Positions 13,447-22,933 of a DNA stretch of 53,967 nt are shown in pieces (the first letter of the stretch is position 1; each line of letters opens with the position of its first letter). A model generated the notes under the pieces. It was not told the origin of the DNA. It made no database searches and saw only the letters and a list, made by a program, of their open reading frames with translations. Source of the stretch: an uncultured Bacteroidota bacterium. GTDB lineage: Bacteria > Bacteroidota > Bacteroidia > Flavobacteriales_D > Crocinitomicaceae. Both the position numbers and the translations under genes were made by a program. Location of the stretch: NCBI GenBank assembly GCA_937899625.1, contig CALCCB010000055.1:1-53967 (forward strand), written 5' to 3'.

Positions 13447-13470
13447 AATGTTAAAGTTTTGATAATTATG

Positions 13471-13504
13471 AAGGGTTGTGTGATTTTGTTGCACAACCCT
13501 TTTA
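13471..13504 (+). terminator. Rho-independent terminator overlapping the next promoter
   Basis: A perfect 10-bp stem (AAGGGTTGTG with CACAACCCTT) encloses an 11-nt loop and ends in a short T tract. The T tract runs directly into the -7 element TATATTTG of the next gene. Confidence 0.85.
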
Positions 13505-13510
13505 TATTTG
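13503..13510 (+). promoter_or_regulatory. -7 promoter element of the small gene at 13515
   Basis: TATATTTG is an exact TAnnTTTG match that begins inside the T tract of the preceding terminator. It ends 4 nt before the GTG at 13515, predicting an essentially leaderless transcript. Confidence 0.55.
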
Positions 13511-13514
13511 TACT

Positions 13515-13895
13515 GTGCTAAAGGCATTTTGTCAACGGTTGATCTTGATCATTACACCAATTGTAATGTTGACAAATGTATCTTTGAGTTTCATCGACTC
13601 TCTCAATTCACTTACTTCGAATGTAAAGACAGAGGCTATTTTTTCGAAATCTTCCTCGTCAACAGTTCTTGATCTTCCAATGGAGGTATCTACGCTTGAG
13701 TTAGAAGAAGCTGAAGAAAGCTTTGAAGAGTTAAAAGAAACTGACAATGGATTTGACTCCTTCGTTCAAAGCTTCTATAGTGCTTCAGGAGCGAACATTC
13801 ACGATAATCTTTCACGATTAAAAGAATGTCAGTGTTCGCTGTCATTCAAATACAATCAACCTGCCTATCTGGTAAACGAAAATTTCAGACTATAA
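13515..13895 (+). CDS. Small exported or membrane-tethered protein of unknown function
   Basis: A 126-residue product begins at GTG 13515, giving a hydrophobic N-terminus (LILIITPIVMLTNVSLSF) like a signal peptide. A serine-rich stretch, an acidic helix (LELEEAEESFEELKE) and a C-terminal segment with two cysteines (ECQCS) follow. No family is recognised. The GTG is chosen because it lies 4 nt after a perfect -7 element, as seen at other genes here; an alternative ATG at 13566 would drop the hydrophobic segment. Its own promoter and terminator on either side support a real single-gene unit rather than a chance frame. Confidence 0.6.
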   Translation: MLKAFCQRLILIITPIVMLTNVSLSFIDSLNSLTSNVKTEAIFSKSSSSTVLDLPMEVSTLELEEAEESFEELKETDNGFDSFVQSFYSASGANIHDNLSRLKECQCSLSFKYNQPAYLVNENFRL

Positions 13896-13902
13896 CCAAT
13901 TG

Positions 13903-13935
13903 CCTTGTAATGAGTTCATTGCAAGGATTTTTTTT
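13903..13935 (+). terminator. Rho-independent terminator before dabA
   Basis: CCTTGTAAT pairs with ATTGCAAGG (one G-T pair) around a 6-nt loop and is followed by eight or more Ts. It isolates the small gene from the dab operon. Confidence 0.85.
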
Positions 13936-13959
13936 GGTGTAATTTGAAATGTTATCAAC

Positions 13960-16476
13960 ATGAAAATTTCTGAGTACTCGCATGGCGATGAGTACAAAAT
14001 AATTGAAGAACTAAAACATTTTCTTCCAAGTCAAGCCCCGTTAAAAGACTTTATTCATCACAATACTTTACATGCTTTTCAGCATGATGAGTTTGAAAAA
14101 GCCTTGTTTAATGCTGCGCAGACCTTTGGGTATCGTGTCTACCTATCACTTGATCAATTCAGGATGAAATTCCGTGAAGGTGAAATTGAGGAGTCAATTC
14201 TCGATGAGGAGATAAGAATTAGAAAGGGCAACGATTCCGAAAGCTGGAAAAGGAAAATGTTAGAAGGTGCCTTCAACGAGGATCTTGAACCTGAAATCGG
14301 AAGATTAAGGCATCATTGGAAATCAAGGTACAGAATCGACATGGATTCAATGGTTTATCCTTTATTGTTCCGGATACTGAGTAGTTATCTGGATCAAGGG
14401 ATTGCAATATGGGGATTCCCTGTTTCTGATAAAGGTTTTTTAGCTTCCCTGGCTGATTTGGAAAGGAATTCAAAAACTTCCTTTTTCAAAACGGATCGAG
14501 CAAGAAAATTACTGATCGATGGGAGATCAAATCTTTCTGATCTGCTTAAACTAATTGTTGGGAATAAGGAGTTATATGAAAGATATCTTTTTGATCAGCA
14601 ATTTGCTCATCCGGGTTGGTCCGGAATGGTCGCAGTCATTGAAGGGAATAATGGGCATCTCCTTGATAAGAGGAAGATAACACTGGAAGAGTTCATCTGT
14701 TTTGAGTTACTATTGGAAATTGATGTGCTGGATGATCATTTCGGTGGTGTTTGGTCTCCGATCGGAGTGAACAACCCTGATCATTTTGAAGATTTGTTTA
14801 CACACAAAAAGGTGAATGAATACTTTGAAGTACTTCATATTTTTCAAGTATCCTATGAATGGACATATTACCAAAGTGTTCTGAGAGGGATTGGTCAGTC
14901 GAAGAATGAGCAAAAGGAAGAGCTTCAAACCTTTGATGCTTTGTTTTGCATTGATGATAGAGAATGTTCAATTAGAAGGCATTTAGAATCACAGAACCCT
15001 GGGATCAAAACATACGGGACAGCTGGTTTCTTTAATGTAGAGTTCTTTTATCAGCCTGAACAAAGTAAATTTTATACAAAGGTTTGCCCGGCTCCTTTAA
15101 CTCCTAACTATTTGATCAAGGAGGAAAGTTCATCTTTAAAAAAGAAAAAGGATTTCCACTTCGGACATCATTCTCATGGCCTTTTCTTAGGATGGATATT
15201 CACTCACACCTTAGGATTTTGGTCTGCTCTGAGACTCTTTTTAACTGTCTTTAAACCTCAGGAGTCAGCCTCTATGGTGACATCTTTTGGACATATGGAT
15301 CCTCAGTCAAAACTCACTGTTGAAAATAAAAATGGCGAGAAAACTGAGGATGGTTTACAGATTGGATTTACAATTCATGAAATGGCTGATCGTCTGGAAG
15401 GTTTACTGAGAAGCATTGGATTGATCGCGAATTTCGGTAAAGTGATTTATGCAATTGGTCATGGATCTAGTAGTGTAAATAATACGCATTATGCAGGCTA
15501 CGATTGTGGCGCTTGTTCCGGAAGACCTGGATCAGTAAATGCAAGAGTAATCGCTCATATTGGAAATCACCAACAGGTTCGATTAATACTCAGAGAAAAG
15601 GGGATCGATATTCCGGACGAAACAGTCTTTGTGGGGGCATTGCATGACACTTCTAGGGATGAGATTATGTACTATGATCTTGATGTTTTAAGTCCTGCAC
15701 AAAGTAAATACCATCAAGCTTTCACTGTTTCAATGAGCAATGCGCTTGATTTTAATGCAAAGGAACGTTCGCGCAGATTTGTTCTTACACCTTCACATGG
15801 AGATCCAAAAAAGGTTCATGAAAAGGTAAAGCTGAGAACGATCTCCCTTTTTGAACCAAGACCTGAATTGAATCATGCAACGAATACCCTGTGTATTGTA
15901 GGTAGGAGAGAATTGACAAAGAACCTATTTCTCGATCGAAGAGCATTTTTGAATTCGTACGACTATAGTATTGATCCAGAAGGAAAATATCTTACTGGTA
16001 TTCTAAATGCTGTAGCGCCAGTTTGTGGTGGGATTAATCTAGAATATTTCTTTTCTAGAGTCGATAATCAAAAACTTGGAGCCGGAACAAAACTACCTCA
16101 CAATGTGATGGGATTGATTGGAGTGGCCAATGGAATTGATGGAGACTTGCGAACAGGTTTACCGAGTCAGATGATCGAAGTACATGATCCATTAAGGTTA
16201 TTGGTGATAGTCGAACATGATCCTGAAGTGGTTTTAAATGTGTTGATGAACAATCCAAAAACGTACGAATGGTTTCTGAAAGGATGGGTGAATTTGTGTG
16301 TACTGAATCCAATGACCTCCATTGTTTACAGGTTCTTGAATGGTGAATTAATTCCTTCAGATCGGAACGTACCCCTCAATTTTACAATTGCAGATCTAAT
16401 GAAGACTGTAGAAGCTAGTTCTGAAAATCTACCTGTTAGTCATTTAATACCTGAAGAATATGGAACAGCTCGTTAA
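13960..16476 (+). CDS. dabA: Inorganic carbon uptake complex subunit DabA
   Basis: The 838-residue product belongs to the DabA/UPF0753 (DUF2309) family, the carbonic-anhydrase-like cytoplasmic subunit of the energy-coupled DAB carbon pump. The N-terminal family signature FIHHNTLHAFQHDEFEKAL is present. The four zinc-site residues known from the Halothiobacillus protein are all visible: C330 and D332 (CIDDRE), H501 (IGHGSS) and C516 (GYDCGAC). The 2-residue and 15-residue spacings match those of the characterised enzyme. It is expected to hydrate CO2 to bicarbonate vectorially when paired with DabB. It overlaps dabB by 17 nt, implying translational coupling. Only a weak -7-like TAATTTGA precedes the start. 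Confidence 0.95.
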   Translation: MKISEYSHGDEYKIIEELKHFLPSQAPLKDFIHHNTLHAFQHDEFEKALFNAAQTFGYRVYLSLDQFRMKFREGEIEESILDEEIRIRKGNDSESWKRKMLEGAFNEDLEPEIGRLRHHWKSRYRIDMDSMVYPLLFRILSSYLDQGIAIWGFPVSDKGFLASLADLERNSKTSFFKTDRARKLLIDGRSNLSDLLKLIVGNKELYERYLFDQQFAHPGWSGMVAVIEGNNGHLLDKRKITLEEFICFELLLEIDVLDDHFGGVWSPIGVNNPDHFEDLFTHKKVNEYFEVLHIFQVSYEWTYYQSVLRGIGQSKNEQKEELQTFDALFCIDDRECSIRRHLESQNPGIKTYGTAGFFNVEFFYQPEQSKFYTKVCPAPLTPNYLIKEESSSLKKKKDFHFGHHSHGLFLGWIFTHTLGFWSALRLFLTVFKPQESASMVTSFGHMDPQSKLTVENKNGEKTEDGLQIGFTIHEMADRLEGLLRSIGLIANFGKVIYAIGHGSSSVNNTHYAGYDCGACSGRPGSVNARVIAHIGNHQQVRLILREKGIDIPDETVFVGALHDTSRDEIMYYDLDVLSPAQSKYHQAFTVSMSNALDFNAKERSRRFVLTPSHGDPKKVHEKVKLRTISLFEPRPELNHATNTLCIVGRRELTKNLFLDRRAFLNSYDYSIDPEGKYLTGILNAVAPVCGGINLEYFFSRVDNQKLGAGTKLPHNVMGLIGVANGIDGDLRTGLPSQMIEVHDPLRLLVIVEHDPEVVLNVLMNNPKTYEWFLKGWVNLCVLNPMTSIVYRFLNGELIPSDRNVPLNFTIADLMKTVEASSENLPVSHLIPEEYGTAR

Positions 16477-18328
16477 TTTATTTGTGTTGATCCCATTGTT
16501 GGGTTTTATAATAGGATTAGTCATCCCTTCTCAAAAGGAGGGTGCCCTTTCAAAGATTACTTATTTAACGATCGGTATACAGCTTATTGTGTCTTTAGTC
16601 TTCATTGGGTGGTGGATTTGGAACGGATCGAATGTTATAAATCTTAAGGAATTTTCAATTTTCAAAACAGTTCATTATGACTTTTACATTGACCTGTACT
16701 TTGATAAGATCTCAGCGACATACATTCTGATTGGGGCGGTTCTTACTTTCCTTATAACTGTATATAGTAGATACTATTTGCATCGTGAAGAAGGGTATAA
16801 GAGATTCTTTAATACGATCATGTTCTTCTATTTGGGTTACTCGATCGTTACCGTCTCAGGAAACCTTGAAACTCTTTTCATAGGTTGGGAAGTTTTAGGG
16901 GTGTCATCCTTTCTGTTGATCGCATTTTATCGCGACCGATATTTGCCAGTGAAGAATGCGGTGAAGGTCTTCTCGATCTATCGCATCGGGGATGTTGGTG
17001 TTATCCTGGCAATGTGGCTAAGTCATCACATGTGGAATGAAAACATTTCATTTTACAAGTTGAACAATTATGAACTGGTGCATGATCACATAGTTGAACA
17101 TAGCTTGGTAGGACTGTTCGTTGCCATCGTAATCTTTATTTCTGCTGCGGCCAAATCAGCTCAGCTTCCATTTTCAAGTTGGTTGCCAAGAGCTATGGAA
17201 GGTCCAACTCCGTCGAGTGCAATTTTTTACGGATCGCTGAGCGTTCATATGGGGGCATTCCTTTTAATGAGGACATATCCATTTTGGGAACAACAGATCT
17301 CATTCAGGATATTCGTCATTTTAATGGGGATTGCGACCAGTGTAATGGCGACATTGACCGCACGGGTTCAATCGTCAATTAAAAGCCAGATCGCATATTC
17401 TTCTGTTGCTCAGATAGGATTGATCTTTGTTGAAATAGCCTTGGGCTGGGAAACTTTCGCGTTGATCCATGTTGCAGGTAATGCATTCCTAAGAACATAT
17501 CAATTATTGGTTTCTCCGTCGATTGTAAGCTATAAGATCAGAGAGCAGCAATATCATTTCGTGCCGAAACAAAGGACGCTTGAAGACAGTTGGCCGAAGC
17601 GAATTGAATATACACTCTATATGTTGAGCTTGAAAGAATGGAATCTTGATTCTATCATGTATAAATACATGTGGAATCCCTTAAAAAAGATAGGTTCCAG
17701 ATGGTCTTTCTTAACCTTTAAGAATGTTTACGTCTTTTTTGCCGGAGCATTTATTTTAGGGATGATTCTGTCGTTTAATCAAGACTGGATTTCTCCATGG
17801 TGGAGATTTTGCCTTCCATTGATCTATGCCTTTATTGGATTATTAATGGTGATCAAAGCGTTCACGGAGCGTGCAAGTGTGCGATTAAGCTGGAGCTTGA
17901 TCATAACAAATCACTTTGGTATTGCTCTGGCAATTTCATTCAATGAACATTTTGATGCCCTGCATCATTTTTGGTATCTGGGTGGAGTTATTGTTTCTGG
18001 ATTGTTAGGCTATGCTTGTATCCAAAGACTAAGATCACTTGAAAGCTGGGTAAGTTTGGATCAATTCTATGGTCACGTCTATGAACATCCCAAAATTGGA
18101 TTCATGTTTTTACTTGCTTGTTTGGGTGTTTCAGGTTTTCCTATCACTCCTACATTCGTTGGAGAGGACTTGATCTTTAGCCACATAAAAGAGGATCAAT
18201 TGCTGTTGGCATTCTTGATCTCAATGAGTTTGATCATCAATGGTCTGGCGGCAATCAGAATCTATGCAAGAATATTTTTAGGACCTCATGTTAAAACCTA
18301 TCACGGATCAGCAAAGAGGTCATCTTAA
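16460..18328 (+). CDS. dabB: DabB, NuoL/Mrp-like proton-conducting membrane subunit
   Basis: The 622-residue membrane protein is of the NADH dehydrogenase subunit 5/NuoL type and is the membrane partner of DabA, presumably coupling cation influx to carbon hydration. The glutamate motif GWEVLGVSSFLLIAFYRDR and the lysine motif AAKSAQLPFSSWLPRAMEG are conserved. Other channel positions differ from NuoL: the histidine of the SALIHA motif is Tyr (SAIFYG), with a His six residues later. The HAFFKALLFL motif reads NAFLRTYQLL, so its Lys is Arg. The gene overlaps dabA by 17 nt and is followed after 29 nt by sulP. No other complex I genes are near, which rules out a nuo operon. Confidence 0.93.
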   Translation: MEQLVNLFVLIPLLGFIIGLVIPSQKEGALSKITYLTIGIQLIVSLVFIGWWIWNGSNVINLKEFSIFKTVHYDFYIDLYFDKISATYILIGAVLTFLITVYSRYYLHREEGYKRFFNTIMFFYLGYSIVTVSGNLETLFIGWEVLGVSSFLLIAFYRDRYLPVKNAVKVFSIYRIGDVGVILAMWLSHHMWNENISFYKLNNYELVHDHIVEHSLVGLFVAIVIFISAAAKSAQLPFSSWLPRAMEGPTPSSAIFYGSLSVHMGAFLLMRTYPFWEQQISFRIFVILMGIATSVMATLTARVQSSIKSQIAYSSVAQIGLIFVEIALGWETFALIHVAGNAFLRTYQLLVSPSIVSYKIREQQYHFVPKQRTLEDSWPKRIEYTLYMLSLKEWNLDSIMYKYMWNPLKKIGSRWSFLTFKNVYVFFAGAFILGMILSFNQDWISPWWRFCLPLIYAFIGLLMVIKAFTERASVRLSWSLIITNHFGIALAISFNEHFDALHHFWYLGGVIVSGLLGYACIQRLRSLESWVSLDQFYGHVYEHPKIGFMFLLACLGVSGFPITPTFVGEDLIFSHIKEDQLLLAFLISMSLIINGLAAIRIYARIFLGPHVKTYHGSAKRSS

Positions 18329-18357
18329 TTGAATTAATAACATTAAATAGAAATAAG

Positions 18358-19947
18358 ATGTTACAAGAAAAAATAAAGGTTCCACAAGATGGAATCAAAG
18401 GTTTGAAAGAAAATTTTGGAGTAGATTTTCTTTCCGGGTTTATGGTTTTTTTATTGGCATTACCACTCAGTTTGGGTATTGCTAAAGCCAGTGAGTTTCC
18501 TCCGGCGATGGGTGTGCTAACAGCAATGATTGGAGGTCTCTTCGTGTCATTGTTTATGGGTGCAAGAATGACGATAAAAGGTCCTGCTGCAGGTTTAATT
18601 ACTGTTTGCGCAGGAGCAGTAATTGAAATGGGAGGTGGTGTTGCTGGTTGGCAAATGACAGCTGCAGCTATTGTGGTGACAGGTGTGATCCAGTATATTC
18701 TGGGATGGCTCAAAGTAGGGAAATTGAATGATTTTTTCCCTCATTCTGCTGTACATGGAATGCTGGCTGCGATCGGGATACTTATTTTTGCTAAGCAATT
18801 CCCAATTCTTTTAGGAGTAGATCCTGCTTTAACGAAAGGACTTTCTCCAATAGAATTGTATACCCACATTCCACTTTTCATCTCAAAAGCTAACCCAACA
18901 ATCGCCTTGATAGGAATTATTGGTTTGGCGAACCTTTTCGGATTACCGCTCCTTGGGAAATCCTTTAAAAAAGTTCCAGGTCCTCTTGTTGTTTTATTGA
19001 TTGCGGTTCCTATTGCAATTGGAATGGATTTCAAAACGTTACAGCCAGAATATTCATTAGTGAAAATTGGAGATTTCTGGAGTACAGTGAAGATCAACGC
19101 CGACTTCTCTCTTGTCGGAACTTTTGTTTTCTGGAAATATGTTTTCATGTTCTTATTCGTAAATAGTTTAGAGTCATTATTGACGGTTAAAGCTATAGAT
19201 GGTCAGGATCCATACAAAAGAAAATCTGATTATGATAAAGATCTAAGGGCACTTGGTATGGGTAATTCCTTGTCAGGTTTATTAGGAGGGCTACCAATGA
19301 TCTCTGAAGTTGCCCGTAGTGCGGCAAACGTCAATTTTGGTGGAAGAACGAGATGGGCTAATTTCTTTCATGGGTTCTTCTTATTGGTCGCCATGTTGCT
19401 AATGATTCCTGTGATCGAACTTATTCCTAATTCGGCATTGGCAGCAATGTTGATCTTTGTAGCCTACCGTTTGGCTTCTCCAAAAGAGTTCATAGGGGTT
19501 TATAAAGTTGGTCCGGAACAATTGGTGATCTTTTGTACTACGATCTTGGTAACTGTATTAGAAGACCTGTTATTGGGAATAGCTGCAGGTATCCTGGTGA
19601 AGTTTATCTTCCATTTAGCGAATGGTGCTAAATTCTCTTCCTTGTTCAAAGCAAAGTATTCGATCAAAGTTATTGGTGATCAACATTACTTAGATCTTGA
19701 AGGTTCAGCAGTATTCTCTAATTTGATTGCATTAAAGCATGTTTTTGAAGAAATCCCTCCAAGAAAATTAATCATCATCGATTTTTCGAAGGTGAGATTT
19801 GTTGATCATTCATTTATGGACTTTTTAGAGCGATTTGAAGAAGATTATCAATATGAGGGTGGAACAGTGACAATAGTTGGATTCGAGAAGTTCAAAAACC
19901 TCTCCAAGCATCATTTATGTGCAAGAAAAAGTTTACATAATGCGTAG
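18358..19947 (+). CDS. SulP family anion transporter with STAS domain (bicarbonate or sulfate)
   Basis: The 529-residue inner-membrane protein has the SulP core. This includes FLLALPLSLGIAKASEFPP, GPAAGLITVCAG, the MISEVARSAANVNFGGRTRW segment, and a C-terminal STAS domain from about residue 440 (KLIIIDFSKVRFVDHSFMDF). SulP proteins carry sulfate, bicarbonate or other anions, often with Na+. The position directly behind dabAB points to bicarbonate (BicA-like) as the likely substrate, an inference from context. The 3' end overlaps the next gene by 8 nt. Confidence 0.9.
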   Translation: MLQEKIKVPQDGIKGLKENFGVDFLSGFMVFLLALPLSLGIAKASEFPPAMGVLTAMIGGLFVSLFMGARMTIKGPAAGLITVCAGAVIEMGGGVAGWQMTAAAIVVTGVIQYILGWLKVGKLNDFFPHSAVHGMLAAIGILIFAKQFPILLGVDPALTKGLSPIELYTHIPLFISKANPTIALIGIIGLANLFGLPLLGKSFKKVPGPLVVLLIAVPIAIGMDFKTLQPEYSLVKIGDFWSTVKINADFSLVGTFVFWKYVFMFLFVNSLESLLTVKAIDGQDPYKRKSDYDKDLRALGMGNSLSGLLGGLPMISEVARSAANVNFGGRTRWANFFHGFFLLVAMLLMIPVIELIPNSALAAMLIFVAYRLASPKEFIGVYKVGPEQLVIFCTTILVTVLEDLLLGIAAGILVKFIFHLANGAKFSSLFKAKYSIKVIGDQHYLDLEGSAVFSNLIALKHVFEEIPPRKLIIIDFSKVRFVDHSFMDFLERFEEDYQYEGGTVTIVGFEKFKNLSKHHLCARKSLHNA

Positions 19948-21292
19948 TGTAATCATAAAGTCTTTTAGTTTGGTTTTTTTGGGGATTTTGACGTTTTCAA
20001 ATCAGTTAATGGCCCAGAAGAATGATCTGAAGTTTTGGCTTGACGAAAACAAAGGAACTTACTTTCAAGTCATTTTCTTAAATCAGACATGGTTGAGGTT
20101 CAATGAAAGTAATTCAGGAACGAAAGTGAATGGAGTTCCAGAATCAAGCACATTTGACATTGGGCTAAGAAGGACTAGGATACAGATGTTTGGGCAGATA
20201 GCTCCTAAGGCGTTCATGTATTTTCAATTCGGGGAAAATAATTTCAATGCTGTGTATAGCAACAATGGTAATCGAAAGATTGCCCCGTTTTTTCATGATG
20301 CGCTTTGTGAATATAAACTGTCAAATGGCAATCAATTAAAAATTGGAGGAGGCTTGACTATAGCAAATGGATTGTCCAGATTTTCGCAACCATCGATTGG
20401 TACAATAATGACCATGGATGTGCCTGTTTTTGCTCAGGCAACCGTTGAGAAGATCGATCAATTTGCAAGAAAGTTGAGTCTGTATGCAAGAGGTCAAGTG
20501 TCAAAGTTGGATTATAGATTTGTTGTCTCAGATCCATTTCCAGTCAGCACCTTAGGGGGATCGGCTGAACCTATTTCTGACAATTCTTCTTTTTCGGCAC
20601 AAAAGCGAAATAAGCAGTTTCAGACCTATTTAAGTTGGCAGTTTTTTGAAAAAGAGGGGCATACCACTCCATACATGACTGGTACCTATTTGGGGAAGAA
20701 AAAAGTGTTGAATGTAGCTGCCGGTATGATCTTTCAAAAAGATGCAATGTGGAGGACAGTGAATTCGGCTGATACATTGTTTGAGAATCTTAATCTTTTC
20801 TGTGTAGAATCCTTTCTTGATCTGCCTTTGAACAAAGAGAAAAAGAATGCAATAATGGCATATGCAGGGTATTTTATAACGGATTATGGAAAGAATTATC
20901 TGCGCTATAATGGGTTAATGAATCCTGCTGATGGTTCCAATGCACAAAATGTGATTACTGGAGCTGGCCCTGCTTACGGTAATTCATATCCAATGTTTGG
21001 TACGGGAAAAGTTATTTATTCTCAATTCGGTTACTTGTTTCGAAACAATTTGCTAGGAGAAGATTTAGGTACACTTCAACCATACGCTTCTGTTACTGTA
21101 GGAAACTATGAAAGGCTGCAAGGAAACATTTCTGATGTTTACAATGTTGGTGTGAATTGGTTGTTGAACGGACATAATGCTAAGATTTCATTCGATTTTC
21201 AGTCACGGCCTTCTTTCCTTTTAGAAAACAATGATGTAATTAAAGGAGGAAGAAAGAGTTGTTTTATCGTTCAGTTTCAGGCTTCGATTTAA
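19940..21292 (+). CDS. Outer-membrane porin-like beta-barrel protein of the dab operon
   Basis: The 450-residue protein has a signal peptide (IKSFSLVFLGILTFSNQLMAQ). The mature part consists of alternating amphipathic strands with many aromatic and glycine residues and a final strand (SCFIVQFQASI), as expected for an outer-membrane barrel. It resembles phosphate-selective or OprO/P-like porins in general layout; exact family membership is not certain. The frame extends upstream to 19877, but ATG 19940 gives the signal peptide and an 8-nt overlap with the SulP stop. Translational coupling to sulP suggests it supplies an outer-membrane route for the same anion. A strong terminator follows. Confidence 0.8.
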   Translation: MRSVIIKSFSLVFLGILTFSNQLMAQKNDLKFWLDENKGTYFQVIFLNQTWLRFNESNSGTKVNGVPESSTFDIGLRRTRIQMFGQIAPKAFMYFQFGENNFNAVYSNNGNRKIAPFFHDALCEYKLSNGNQLKIGGGLTIANGLSRFSQPSIGTIMTMDVPVFAQATVEKIDQFARKLSLYARGQVSKLDYRFVVSDPFPVSTLGGSAEPISDNSSFSAQKRNKQFQTYLSWQFFEKEGHTTPYMTGTYLGKKKVLNVAAGMIFQKDAMWRTVNSADTLFENLNLFCVESFLDLPLNKEKKNAIMAYAGYFITDYGKNYLRYNGLMNPADGSNAQNVITGAGPAYGNSYPMFGTGKVIYSQFGYLFRNNLLGEDLGTLQPYASVTVGNYERLQGNISDVYNVGVNWLLNGHNAKISFDFQSRPSFLLENNDVIKGGRKSCFIVQFQASI

Positions 21293-21323: not shown

Positions 21324-21362
21324 GAGAAGTCGGTCAGCTGAAGATCGACTTCTCTTTTTTTT
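21324..21362 (+). terminator. Rho-independent terminator of the dab operon
   Basis: GAGAAGTCG pairs with CGACTTCTC across a 13-nt loop, followed by eight Ts. It closes the dabA-dabB-sulP-porin unit. Confidence 0.88.
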
Positions 21363-21389: not shown

Positions 21390-21989
21390 ATGACAGAAGA
21401 TATTAAAGCATTAAGCTATTGCGTAGGAATGAGTATCGCAGGAAGCTTGATCGATCAGCAATTAGCTGGAATTGATACTGCGACTCTTGCGGAAGCAATA
21501 GATGACGCATTTACTGGAAAAGAACCGAAATATTCACCAGATGAAGCGAATGCGATCATACAGCGATTCATGCAACTTCAAATGGAAAAGCAATTTGAAC
21601 AAGACAAAATTGAAGGTGAAGAATTTCTCAAGCAAAATGCGCTGAATGAAGGAGTGAAGACAACGGCTTCAGGACTTCAATACGAAGTATTGGTAGAAGG
21701 GAATGGTGCAGCACCGGATGCAAATAGCACGGTTACTGTGCATTACCACGGAACATTGGTAGATGGAACTGTGTTTGATAGTTCGGTGACAAGAAATCAA
21801 CCGGCTACATTTGGAGTTCGTCAGGTGATTCCAGGTTGGACTGAAGCACTACAATTGATGAACCAGGGAGCGAAATACAGATTGTATATTCCGCAGGAAT
21901 TGGCTTATGGCGCAAATCCTCATCCTGGAGGGCCGATCAAGCCTTACAGTACTTTAATTTTTGATGTTGAACTTTTAGAAATAGCGTAA
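21390..21989 (+). CDS. FKBP-type peptidyl-prolyl cis-trans isomerase, cytoplasmic (FklB-like)
   Basis: The 199-residue protein has an FKBP N-terminal dimerisation domain (residues about 1-90) and a C-terminal FKBP catalytic domain (about 95-199). Active-site motifs VTVHYHGTLVDGTVFDSS, the VIPGW segment and YRLYIPQELAYG are intact. It has no signal peptide, so it should assist folding in the cytoplasm. The layout matches FklB/FkpA proteins. A near-consensus -7 box (TACTTTTA, 21367-21374) precedes it. The stop codon shares one base with the next gene's start, so the two isomerase genes form an operon. Confidence 0.93.
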   Translation: MTEDIKALSYCVGMSIAGSLIDQQLAGIDTATLAEAIDDAFTGKEPKYSPDEANAIIQRFMQLQMEKQFEQDKIEGEEFLKQNALNEGVKTTASGLQYEVLVEGNGAAPDANSTVTVHYHGTLVDGTVFDSSVTRNQPATFGVRQVIPGWTEALQLMNQGAKYRLYIPQELAYGANPHPGGPIKPYSTLIFDVELLEIA

Positions 21990-22933
21990 TGAAGAAGTTT
22001 TTGTTGTTTTTCGTCGCTGCCATTGCGTTATCGGCTTGTGGAGGTGATAAAGAAGAGGTACAGGAAGAGGTTGTCGAATTGAAGGATTTTAAAGATCGTC
22101 TTTCGTATGTGCTTGGTTCTGTAAATGCTAAATCGATTGTTGGTCAGGAGGATCCAAATGTAGCAAGACTGGATATGAATCTTGTTGCAAAAGGTTTTGA
22201 GTCCAATTTGAATGATAATATGCCAGATGGTTGTGAAGAAACGCTGATGAAGTTGTTTGGACCCTATTATCAGGATTTTGATTCTACATATGCTGCTGAA
22301 GGAGCGGAATGTCTGGGTAAGTTAACAGCTTATGCCTTTTACCGCGATATGAAAAGCCTTGGTGGATTGGAAAAGATCGATCTCAAAATGGTCGTGAGTG
22401 GATTCAGACATGGATTAATGAAAAAGGACACGCTGGTTGCTGATGCTGAAAAGCAGAGCATACTTCAAAATTTCATCATGGATCTGAACGTTACGAATGG
22501 AAAGAAGATGATGGCTGAAGCAAAAAAGAAGCCTGGTGTTCAGGTTTTTGAGAACGGTATCATCATGGAAGTAATTCAGGAAGGAAAAGGTGGTAATCCA
22601 GGAGCAACTGACGATGTGAAGGTTGAATATATCCTTACATCAGCTACAGGAGATACGATCCAGAGCTCTTATGACATGAAAAAGACAAATGGTTCTACTG
22701 AAACGGTTGCTTTGAAATTGAACGGTGGTGTGATCCCCGGTTGGAGTTATGCCCTACCTAAAATGAAAAAAGGTGGTAAATATAGATTATGGGTTCCATG
22801 GGAGCTCGCCTATGGTGAACAAATGGGTAAAGAGTCTCTCTGTTTCTTTATTGAGCTAGTAGATTACGCTAAGGAAGGAACTTTTGTGAAGCCTGAGCCA
22901 ATGGCTGATCCAGGAGCAGCCGCTGGTTTTTAA
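21989..22933 (+). CDS. FKBP-type peptidyl-prolyl isomerase lipoprotein
   Basis: The 314-residue protein has a lipoprotein signal (MKKFLLFFVAAIALSAC; lipobox LSAC) and an FKBP N-type helical domain. A C-terminal FKBP domain from about residue 190 contains VKVEYILTSATGDTIQSS, VIPGWSYALPKMKKGGKYR and WELAYGEQ. It should act in the periplasm or at the outer membrane as a folding catalyst or chaperone. Several active-site aromatics of typical FKBPs are changed (HYHG is VEYIL; FDSS is IQSS), so chaperone activity may outweigh isomerase activity. It follows the cytoplasmic paralogue with a one-base TAATG overlap. Confidence 0.9.
   Translation: MKKFLLFFVAAIALSACGGDKEEVQEEVVELKDFKDRLSYVLGSVNAKSIVGQEDPNVARLDMNLVAKGFESNLNDNMPDGCEETLMKLFGPYYQDFDSTYAAEGAECLGKLTAYAFYRDMKSLGGLEKIDLKMVVSGFRHGLMKKDTLVADAEKQSILQNFIMDLNVTNGKKMMAEAKKKPGVQVFENGIIMEVIQEGKGGNPGATDDVKVEYILTSATGDTIQSSYDMKKTNGSTETVALKLNGGVIPGWSYALPKMKKGGKYRLWVPWELAYGEQMGKESLCFFIELVDYAKEGTFVKPEPMADPGAAAGF

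Follow-up and report, generated by a model that had tools for sequence, protein, structure and literature searches.

The dab operon and its extent

We analysed contig CALCCB010000055.1 of an uncultured Bacteroidota bacterium of the Crocinitomicaceae (assembly GCA_937899625.1; positions 1 to 53,967, hereafter the window), on which the two genes of a DabA-DabB (DAB) inorganic carbon pump are followed by genes for a SulP anion transporter and an outer-membrane (OM) barrel. A preliminary description of this DNA had delimited a unit running from dabA to the barrel gene, and the four gene positions, the 17-nt overlap of dabA with dabB, the 29-nt gap between dabB and sulP, the 8-nt overlap of sulP with the barrel gene and the closing terminator were all found as it gave them. 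Its start of the unit had to be moved, however, as the operon begins earlier with a small open reading frame (ORF), here called X, that had been missed. The unit is a five-gene Bacteroidota operon, X-dabA-dabB-sulP-porin, presumably read as a single transcript, with the following features:

13470–13502, + strand: terminator-like hairpin behind the preceding gene, just 5' of the X promoter box
13503–13510, + strand: -7 promoter box TATATTTG of the Bacteroidota type, its end lying 4 nt 5' of the X start codon (GTG)
13515–13895, + strand: X, putative leader ORF of 126 amino acids (aa) and first gene of the unit (GTG at 13515 to TAA at 13895)
13903–13935, + strand: candidate attenuator in the X-dabA spacer, a 10-pair hairpin (13903–13926) followed by the T-run ATTTTTTTT
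13960–16476, + strand: dabA, 838 aa (PF10070, 712.7 bits)
16460–18328, + strand: dabB, 622 aa, NuoL/Mrp-like membrane subunit (PF00361/PF00662)
18358–19947, + strand: sulP, 529 aa, SulP/SLC26 anion transporter (PF00916, 191 bits, over the cut-off)
19940–21292, + strand: OM porin-type barrel, 450 aa counted from the ATG at 19940, with a predicted OprO/OprP-like fold
21324–21362, + strand: intrinsic terminator of the operon, a 12-pair stem (21324–21354) followed by eight T

Two FKBP-type isomerase genes lie 3' of the operon terminator (21390–22933), and a similar-looking isomerase gene pair is likewise found behind the operon of one relative (L036).

SulP and outer-membrane barrels accompany type I DAB loci across families

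DabA was present in 80 of 200 genomes drawn from the family, 81 of 245 from the order and 30 of 392 from the phylum (draws overlap). A total of 117 stretches were read, with genes labelled by jackhmmer from single-sequence seeds and Pfam checks on representatives. The family draw gave 92 DabA match rows, of which the window's own was omitted, 79 were used (77 regions) and 12, mostly partial or at contig ends, were omitted, one of these (G142) being added later as L218. From the phylum draw, 26 of 31 non-window rows were used (omitted: G393, G533, G251, G548 and G536), and four rows of the order draw were omitted (G600, G623, G645 and G647).

Two layouts were seen. Type I consists of X, dabA and dabB, usually sulP and often an OM barrel, while type II has the order dabB-dabA, often with LysR and/or DUF6671. 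The window, with dabA before dabB and both SulP and a barrel present, departs from type II on each count. Among 85 type I dabAB loci, 63 were evaluable (more than 3.5 kb behind dabB and more than 1.5 kb before dabA), the remaining 22 being too close to contig ends.

SulP adjoined dabAB in 60 of the 63 evaluable loci (43/43 within the window's family, 17/20 outside it), and its linkage was kept while gene order varied: the gene lay directly downstream in 55 loci, upstream on the same strand in three (L132, L142 and L148) and divergently in two (L128 and L129). It was not beside dabAB in three type I loci (L124, L134 and L144). An OM barrel was found within three genes of dabAB in 47 loci (38/43 within the family, 9/20 outside), comprising 34 of the DUF2490 family and 13 of the porin type; 46 loci had both SulP and a barrel. 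One further DUF2490 gene stands behind the divergent SulP of L129, and L124 and L127 may carry barrels of other kinds. As an internal control, neither SulP nor either barrel was seen in any of the 31 type II stretches read (5.7 to 16 kb). The dabAB-sulP-barrel linkage is real and conserved across families. The preliminary description had proposed such a survey of Bacteroidota, naming absence of the partners in relatives as the outcome that would speak against it, and the counts went the other way; its picture of SulP and barrel as a special addition to DAB gives way to that of the usual layout of the Bacteroidota type I operon. No title or abstract in our literature search treated the dabAB-sulP-barrel operon or X, although the original DAB survey (Desmarais 2019) could mention them.

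DUF6671 was encountered beside SbtA as well as beside type II DAB (L227–L229, L231, L239, L241, L245–L248, L283 and L285–L288; further loci L080–L083, L085–L089, L091–L093, L123 and L131), which suggests a role of this family in inorganic carbon use.

DabA, DabB and the host genome

DAB pumps have been studied best in the carbon-concentrating machinery of autotrophs. Aligned to DabA2 of Halothiobacillus neapolitanus (C351, D353, H524, C539 and the partner R355), the window's DabA has the zinc-site residues C330, D332, H501 and C516 together with the partner R334, in agreement with the earlier statement that all four zinc-site residues are retained. All five columns were invariant in 74/74 type I DabA proteins aligned to the window. 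DabB (PF00361) adjoins DabA (PF10070), which is the pairing expected of a DAB system. According to a cryo-electron microscopy study of DAB2, exchange of the Asp-Arg pair of DabA impaired growth under CO2 limitation, and energy-coupled one-way hydration of CO2 was proposed (PMC13144422). Judged by its intact zinc-site residues, the window's dabA product is probably a vectorial carbonic-anhydrase-like subunit. The window shares with DabA2/DabB2 of H. neapolitanus the zinc-site residues and partner Arg, a DabB of the NuoL/Mrp family and the adjacency of the two genes; unlike the H. neapolitanus system, its unit is headed by X and contains SulP and an OM barrel, and its host gave no RuBisCO match.

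Several relatives showed variations on the DAB genes. Two full dabA genes with intact zinc motifs, one 5' and one 3' of X, accompany a single dabB in L058 and L064, and in L140, a locus from a metagenome-assembled genome (MAG), dabB is split over two reading frames. Small Pro_CA-like proteins stand beside DAB genes in L063, L076, L080 and L082; the two that were scanned (L080 and L076) gave weak Pfam scores of 32 and 38 bits, and such proteins may be degenerate carbonic anhydrases.

The host genome (G000) belongs to a freshwater bacterium and is 2.93 Mb in size and 94.6% complete; the nearest named records, judged by a DabA identity of 96%, are two MAGs, one labelled Bacteroidetes and the other Crocinitomicaceae. 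At this completeness, no match was obtained for the RuBisCO large subunit, for SbtA or for phosphoenolpyruvate carboxylase, the only carboxylase of other type searched. The suggestion of the preliminary description that the imported carbon could feed anaplerotic carboxylases gained no support from this. A second inorganic-carbon locus on contig C120 of the same genome (L282) consists of a 98-aa acidic leader ORF with the tail PPECKV, a SulP gene and a beta-carbonic anhydrase (beta-CA) gene.

Taking gene order, conservation and catalytic residues together, we regard import of inorganic carbon across both membranes as the probable function of X-dabA-dabB-sulP-porin.

Repeated exchange of the outer-membrane barrel

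The two barrel types that occupy the same place in type I operons are not related: comparison of the porin and DUF2490 profiles gave a probability of 7%, with the signal peptide as the sole shared part. A quickly made DabA tree (74 loci, comprising all 63 evaluable ones and some with shorter flanks), with support by the Shimodaira–Hasegawa-like approximate likelihood ratio test (SH-aLRT) only, required 11 changes of barrel type over the 59 rows bearing one or the other barrel, at least eight of which were forced by branches with SH-aLRT of at least 95. Even sister loci differ, with DUF2490 in L073 and a porin in L077, and a like difference between L041 and L095. Because unrelated barrels have been swapped repeatedly at one operon position, a step at the outer membrane appears to be wanted there, and this replacement is the strongest sign in our data that supports such a required step.

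The window's porin was modelled with a predicted local distance difference test score (pLDDT) of 68 and a predicted template modelling score of 0.71. OprO, OprP and Omp32 ranked first among fold matches of the model (OprO with an E value of 4e-13 and a TM-score of 0.54), and nine Arg residues, candidates for an arginine ladder in the pore, are invariant in an alignment of 18 porin sequences. OprO and OprP are porins of the phosphate type. The window's barrel resembles them as its best PDB fold matches and possibly in its conserved arginines, but differs in an identity of just 10–12% and in the lack of a match to PF07396, as to any other Pfam family; a relative from L205 reached 19.3 bits against the PF07396 cut-off of 20.9. 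With general porins close behind in the fold list, anion selectivity of the window porin is no more than likely.

DUF2490 came to light when the gene behind SulP in most relatives, suspected of being a carbonic anhydrase, was assigned to this family by Pfam instead. The modelled L036 protein (pLDDT 93, 11 strands listed) weakly resembles NanC and autotransporter barrels (best E value 1.4e-3), and six Arg are invariant in 30 DUF2490 sequences. One review describes the function of DUF2490 as not established (PMC4827864).

Partners of DAB at loci without dabAB

Some of the same genes were met in other company. L204 has the order X-sbtA-107 aa ORF-DUF2490 and L205 the order X-sulP-porin, both without dabAB. 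In a survey of 30 DUF2490 loci taken from among the best-scoring matches (1.5 kb flanks), beta-CA and/or SulP stood directly beside DUF2490 in seven (L250, L251, L253, L255, L257, L265 and L276), including three with the arrangement CA-DUF2490-SulP (L250, L251 and L255); L265 is the dab locus L129 met again. SbtA was considered as a regular partner of DUF2490 and rejected, with one case (L221, the same place as L204) in 37.

Which anion passes through SulP

The preliminary description had taken SulP for a bicarbonate-type carrier. The protein is no BicA orthologue, and HCO3- is suggested as its substrate by gene company. With BicA it shares the PF00916 transporter domain and the genomic company of carbonic-anhydrase-type genes, but it lies far under the BicA cut-off and carries Glu at the position of the 6ki1 Asp. 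It was also far below the NCBIfam cut-offs for DauA and TIGR00815. Of the three-layer carbon import that had been proposed, the linkage of SulP and barrel to dabAB stands, while the notion of a one-off addition does not.

A number of observations weigh against inorganic carbon import. SulP scored 101.8 bits against the BicA equivalog NF050096 (NCBIfam), whose cut-off is 880; its nearest solved relatives bear the names of sulfate transporters, with 6ki1, which we take to be BicA, in fifth place; and the window protein has Glu at the ESLLT site, where 6ki1 has an Asp that is presumably a sodium site residue. Confidence in the porin model is just moderate, OmpF-type general porins come close behind in its fold list, and the DabA tree has no bootstrap. 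No recognised barrel was found within three genes in 16 of the 63 evaluable type I loci, 11 of them among the 20 outside the window's family. The direct neighbours of DUF2490 were others than SulP or beta-CA in 23 of the 30 loci surveyed, and DUF2490 was found at one of 37 SbtA loci (30 short-flanked, seven read at greater length). The host already has a beta-CA match, beside its second SulP, and such a match was lacking in 15/69 type I DAB genomes versus 19/131 others (p = 0.24), a comparison in which genomes with an unfetched dab locus were counted as type I and which covers the beta class of carbonic anhydrases.

Part of this evidence would fit an arrangement in which SulP and barrel serve another anion (sulfate, phosphate or a dicarboxylate) and accompany dabAB to keep pH or ions in balance: DabAB would make HCO3- and H+, and SulP would send HCO3- out in exchange for a nutrient anion admitted by the porin. 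The names of the best solved SulP relatives, the want of a BicA equivalog match and the phosphate-type porins (as judged from entry titles) among the fold matches all point that way. We nevertheless hold this to be rather unlikely, as SbtA and beta-CA, which are inorganic-carbon genes, are also found in the company of SulP or a barrel, and no sulfate or phosphate gene was recognised among the ORFs at 11–25 kb of the window (eight of them scanned with Pfam). The loci without a recognised barrel and the OmpF-type porins next after OprO/OprP can also be read to mean that dabAB-sulP alone forms the inorganic-carbon unit and that the barrel is a general porin retained by operon inertia, the more so as any porin could pass small species of dissolved inorganic carbon. 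With at least eight switches of barrel type at one position hard to reconcile with inertia, and with X-sulP-porin occurring without dabAB and CA-DUF2490-SulP occurring in three loci, this seems distinctly improbable, and import across both membranes remains the reading we prefer.

Two broader ideas on the purpose of DAB were rejected. As a general stand-in for a missing carbonic anhydrase it finds no backing, beta-CA being matched in 54/69 type I genomes and 112/131 others and, despite a type I DAB, in the window's own genome (L282). Nor was there an association with rhodopsin as a driving force (16/69 type I versus 42/131 others, p = 0.25); the window's genome gave a partial rhodopsin match only, in a 142-aa frame on contig C97.

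A small ORF under selection heads the operon

X of the window has a hydrophobic N-terminal segment, an acidic middle and the C-terminus NQPAYLVNENFRL directly before the stop codon. When relatives were searched for a same-strand, unlabelled ORF of 86–189 aa that is the first or second upstream of dabA (or of a leading sulP), 78 of 85 type I loci had one, 74 as first and four as second ORF. L147 was dropped, its small ORF reading as another protein, presumably of the CBS type, which left 77. Seven loci fall outside the rule: four (L077, L078, L139 and L141) are truncated by the contig end, in L132 a small ORF is located further upstream of sulP, in L127 the ORF is longer but has a similar tail, and L124 lacks such an ORF.

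By hydropathy, all 77 X have a hydrophobic N-terminal stretch (two also have a later one) and an acidic cluster is present in 73; the two features were combined in 73/77 X versus 15/174 other small ORFs of the same stretches. Pro occupied the 11th position counted from the C-terminus in 52/77 and was in the majority there in 25 of 47 clusters, with related tails such as IPLYILFHSWQHYI at more distant loci. A strict tail pattern picked out 39 leaders of dabA among the 117 stretches. In 4526 long reading frames (the 117 stretches, the window and five more loci) it otherwise matched only X of the window, L171, which was chosen through its X match, and three further copies, in named records, of leaders already known. 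No NCBIfam family matched more than one of 33 X members (best E value 0.006), and Pfam gave no family for the two members scanned. In L133, a 135-aa ORF before a 746-aa gene carries HYC, CC and C-terminal PP motifs and a tail, PPFYKLYCQLVFYA, resembling those of X; we take its family name to be HYC_CC_PP.

The ratio of nonsynonymous to synonymous substitution rates (dN/dS; 15 pairs, of which one was identical and one locus was used twice) was 0.28 over the whole of X; by region it was 0.23 in the first 30 codons, 0.31 in the middle part and 0.10 in the final 14 codons. Because of these values, X is very likely translated and under selection at the protein level, with its end the most constrained part.

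Upstream, TAnnTTTG is presumably the consensus of the Bacteroidota -7 box, and by hand count over 78 rows (77 loci and the window) a box 4–5 nt 5' of an in-frame X start was present in 27 relatives. A full -33/-7 promoter could not be claimed as a general feature (14/78 versus 2.5 expected), the -7 box alone being common.

Downstream, a terminator-like hairpin begins 7 nt 3' of the X stop, and the fold energy of 13880–13970 has a z score of -3.74. X-dabA spacers had a median z of -2.2 (n = 72) versus -1.1 for comparable spacers (n = 163). In the 12 nt that directly follow the X stop, the mean probability of pairing downstream was 0.60, compared with 0.365 after shuffling, and the excess was positive in 36 of 42 clusters; 175 control spacers showed a slight excess too (0.41, shuffled 0.37). 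What we claim is structure in general: a conserved intrinsic terminator was rejected, as a strict detector reported such a terminator for 10 of 78 spacers (in one case within dabA), though it also misses the window's own hairpin, which has an A between stem and T-run. Covariation gives weak support. In 12 clusters, 173 consensus pairs comprised 141 invariant, 22 one-sided and 10 compensatory pairs and none broken, with the consensus drawn from the same sequences and absent in three clusters; with 3' partners shifted most pairs break, yet six compensatory ones appear. The spacer structure would lie within reach of a ribosome halted at the end of X.

X-like ORFs before other genes

Alignment searches for X-like loci away from dabA were followed by reading of L171 and L200–L219. 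X-like ORFs were found directly before RND efflux operons (L171, L200, L202, L203 and L212) and Band 7 (SPFH) lipoprotein-like genes (L201, L206–L209 and L211), and at the head of sbtA (L204), sulP-porin (L205), a gene for a CitMHS-family carrier (L214) and sulP with or without beta-CA (L210, L213 and L217). Representatives of the headed genes (one RND, one Band 7, SbtA, CitMHS, two SulP and one CA) were assigned by Pfam and the rest named from printed protein ends. L218 proved to be a dabA leader, L219 a false match, L215 and L216 were left unassigned, and L172, a weak match with an internal stop, was left out. Leaders of sulP-CA have another tail, PP-x-C-[KR]-V, as has the 98-aa ORF before sulP-CA in the window's genome.

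This anatomy was compared with that of Sec/YidC arrest peptides, for which two papers list a small upstream ORF (uORF) before sec or yidC, an N-terminal export or transmembrane segment, a conserved C-terminus and a spacer of more than 30 aa (PMC10987492, PMC7897499). One of the two reports peptides from Bacteroidota whose stalling occurs while the stop codon occupies the A-site, and the same source mentions possible non-Sec cases, in which uORFs precede the genes for a TonB-dependent transporter and for a multicopper oxidase. X is likewise a small ORF with an export-type N-terminus (77/77), a spacer of more than 30 aa, a conserved C-terminus and RNA structure before the next gene. It differs in its C-terminal motif and in heading a carbon-transport operon (elsewhere RND, Band 7, SbtA or SulP genes) rather than sec or yidC. 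The SecM motif is FSTPVWISQAQGIRAGP (PMC10192921), and its PVWI...GIR run recalls the PIWL...IRI of some X tails, a mere resemblance. X thus has the anatomy of SecM-type arrest leaders, and by analogy it may cause arrest.

We tentatively propose, as a possibility still some way from probable, that X belongs to a widespread, unnamed Bacteroidota class of nascent-chain leaders with an export signal, an acidic spacer and an arrest-like tail P-x-[WFY]-[LI]-x4-[ILF]-[RI]-[IL]-stop, in which a ribosome pause on the last codons or at the stop codon would open the RNA structure beginning at that point and free the downstream transporter operon. X might instead be a small protein that is exported and works as a partner of the transporters. 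Selection over its whole length, including the first 30 codons, and the universal hydrophobic N-terminus would suit a partner, as would the third small subunit described for DAB1 of H. neapolitanus (PMC13144422). Against it stand the presence of X-like ORFs before RND, Band 7, SbtA and CitMHS genes, the peak of constraint in the last 14 codons and the onset of RNA structure immediately 3' of the stop codon, and we consider the partner protein a somewhat doubtful, if serious, alternative to a leader peptide.

Proposed working and significance

In the model we prefer, the anion-type porin would admit HCO3- and other small anions to the periplasm, and CO2 would pass the inner membrane unaided. 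DabAB, driven by the proton motive force, would hydrate CO2 to HCO3- in the cytoplasm, while SulP would move HCO3- over the inner membrane or exchange it for another anion, with transport presumably inward overall. X, as first gene, would set expression of the operon, possibly as an on-off switch.

Here the DAB genes share a conserved operon with genes for a SulP carrier and a channel of the outer membrane, and the genome gave no RuBisCO match. The operon opens the passage of bicarbonate through the outer membrane to experiment, and the dab context gives some DUF2490 barrels a candidate role. Should X work as proposed, nascent-chain control would enter carbon uptake: a decoy protein, through being translated and exported, would control the uptake of inorganic carbon (dabAB-sulP-porin, sbtA and sulP-CA) and other machinery of the envelope (RND efflux and Band 7), and X would hint at a group of small regulatory genes of Bacteroidota outside known sequence families.

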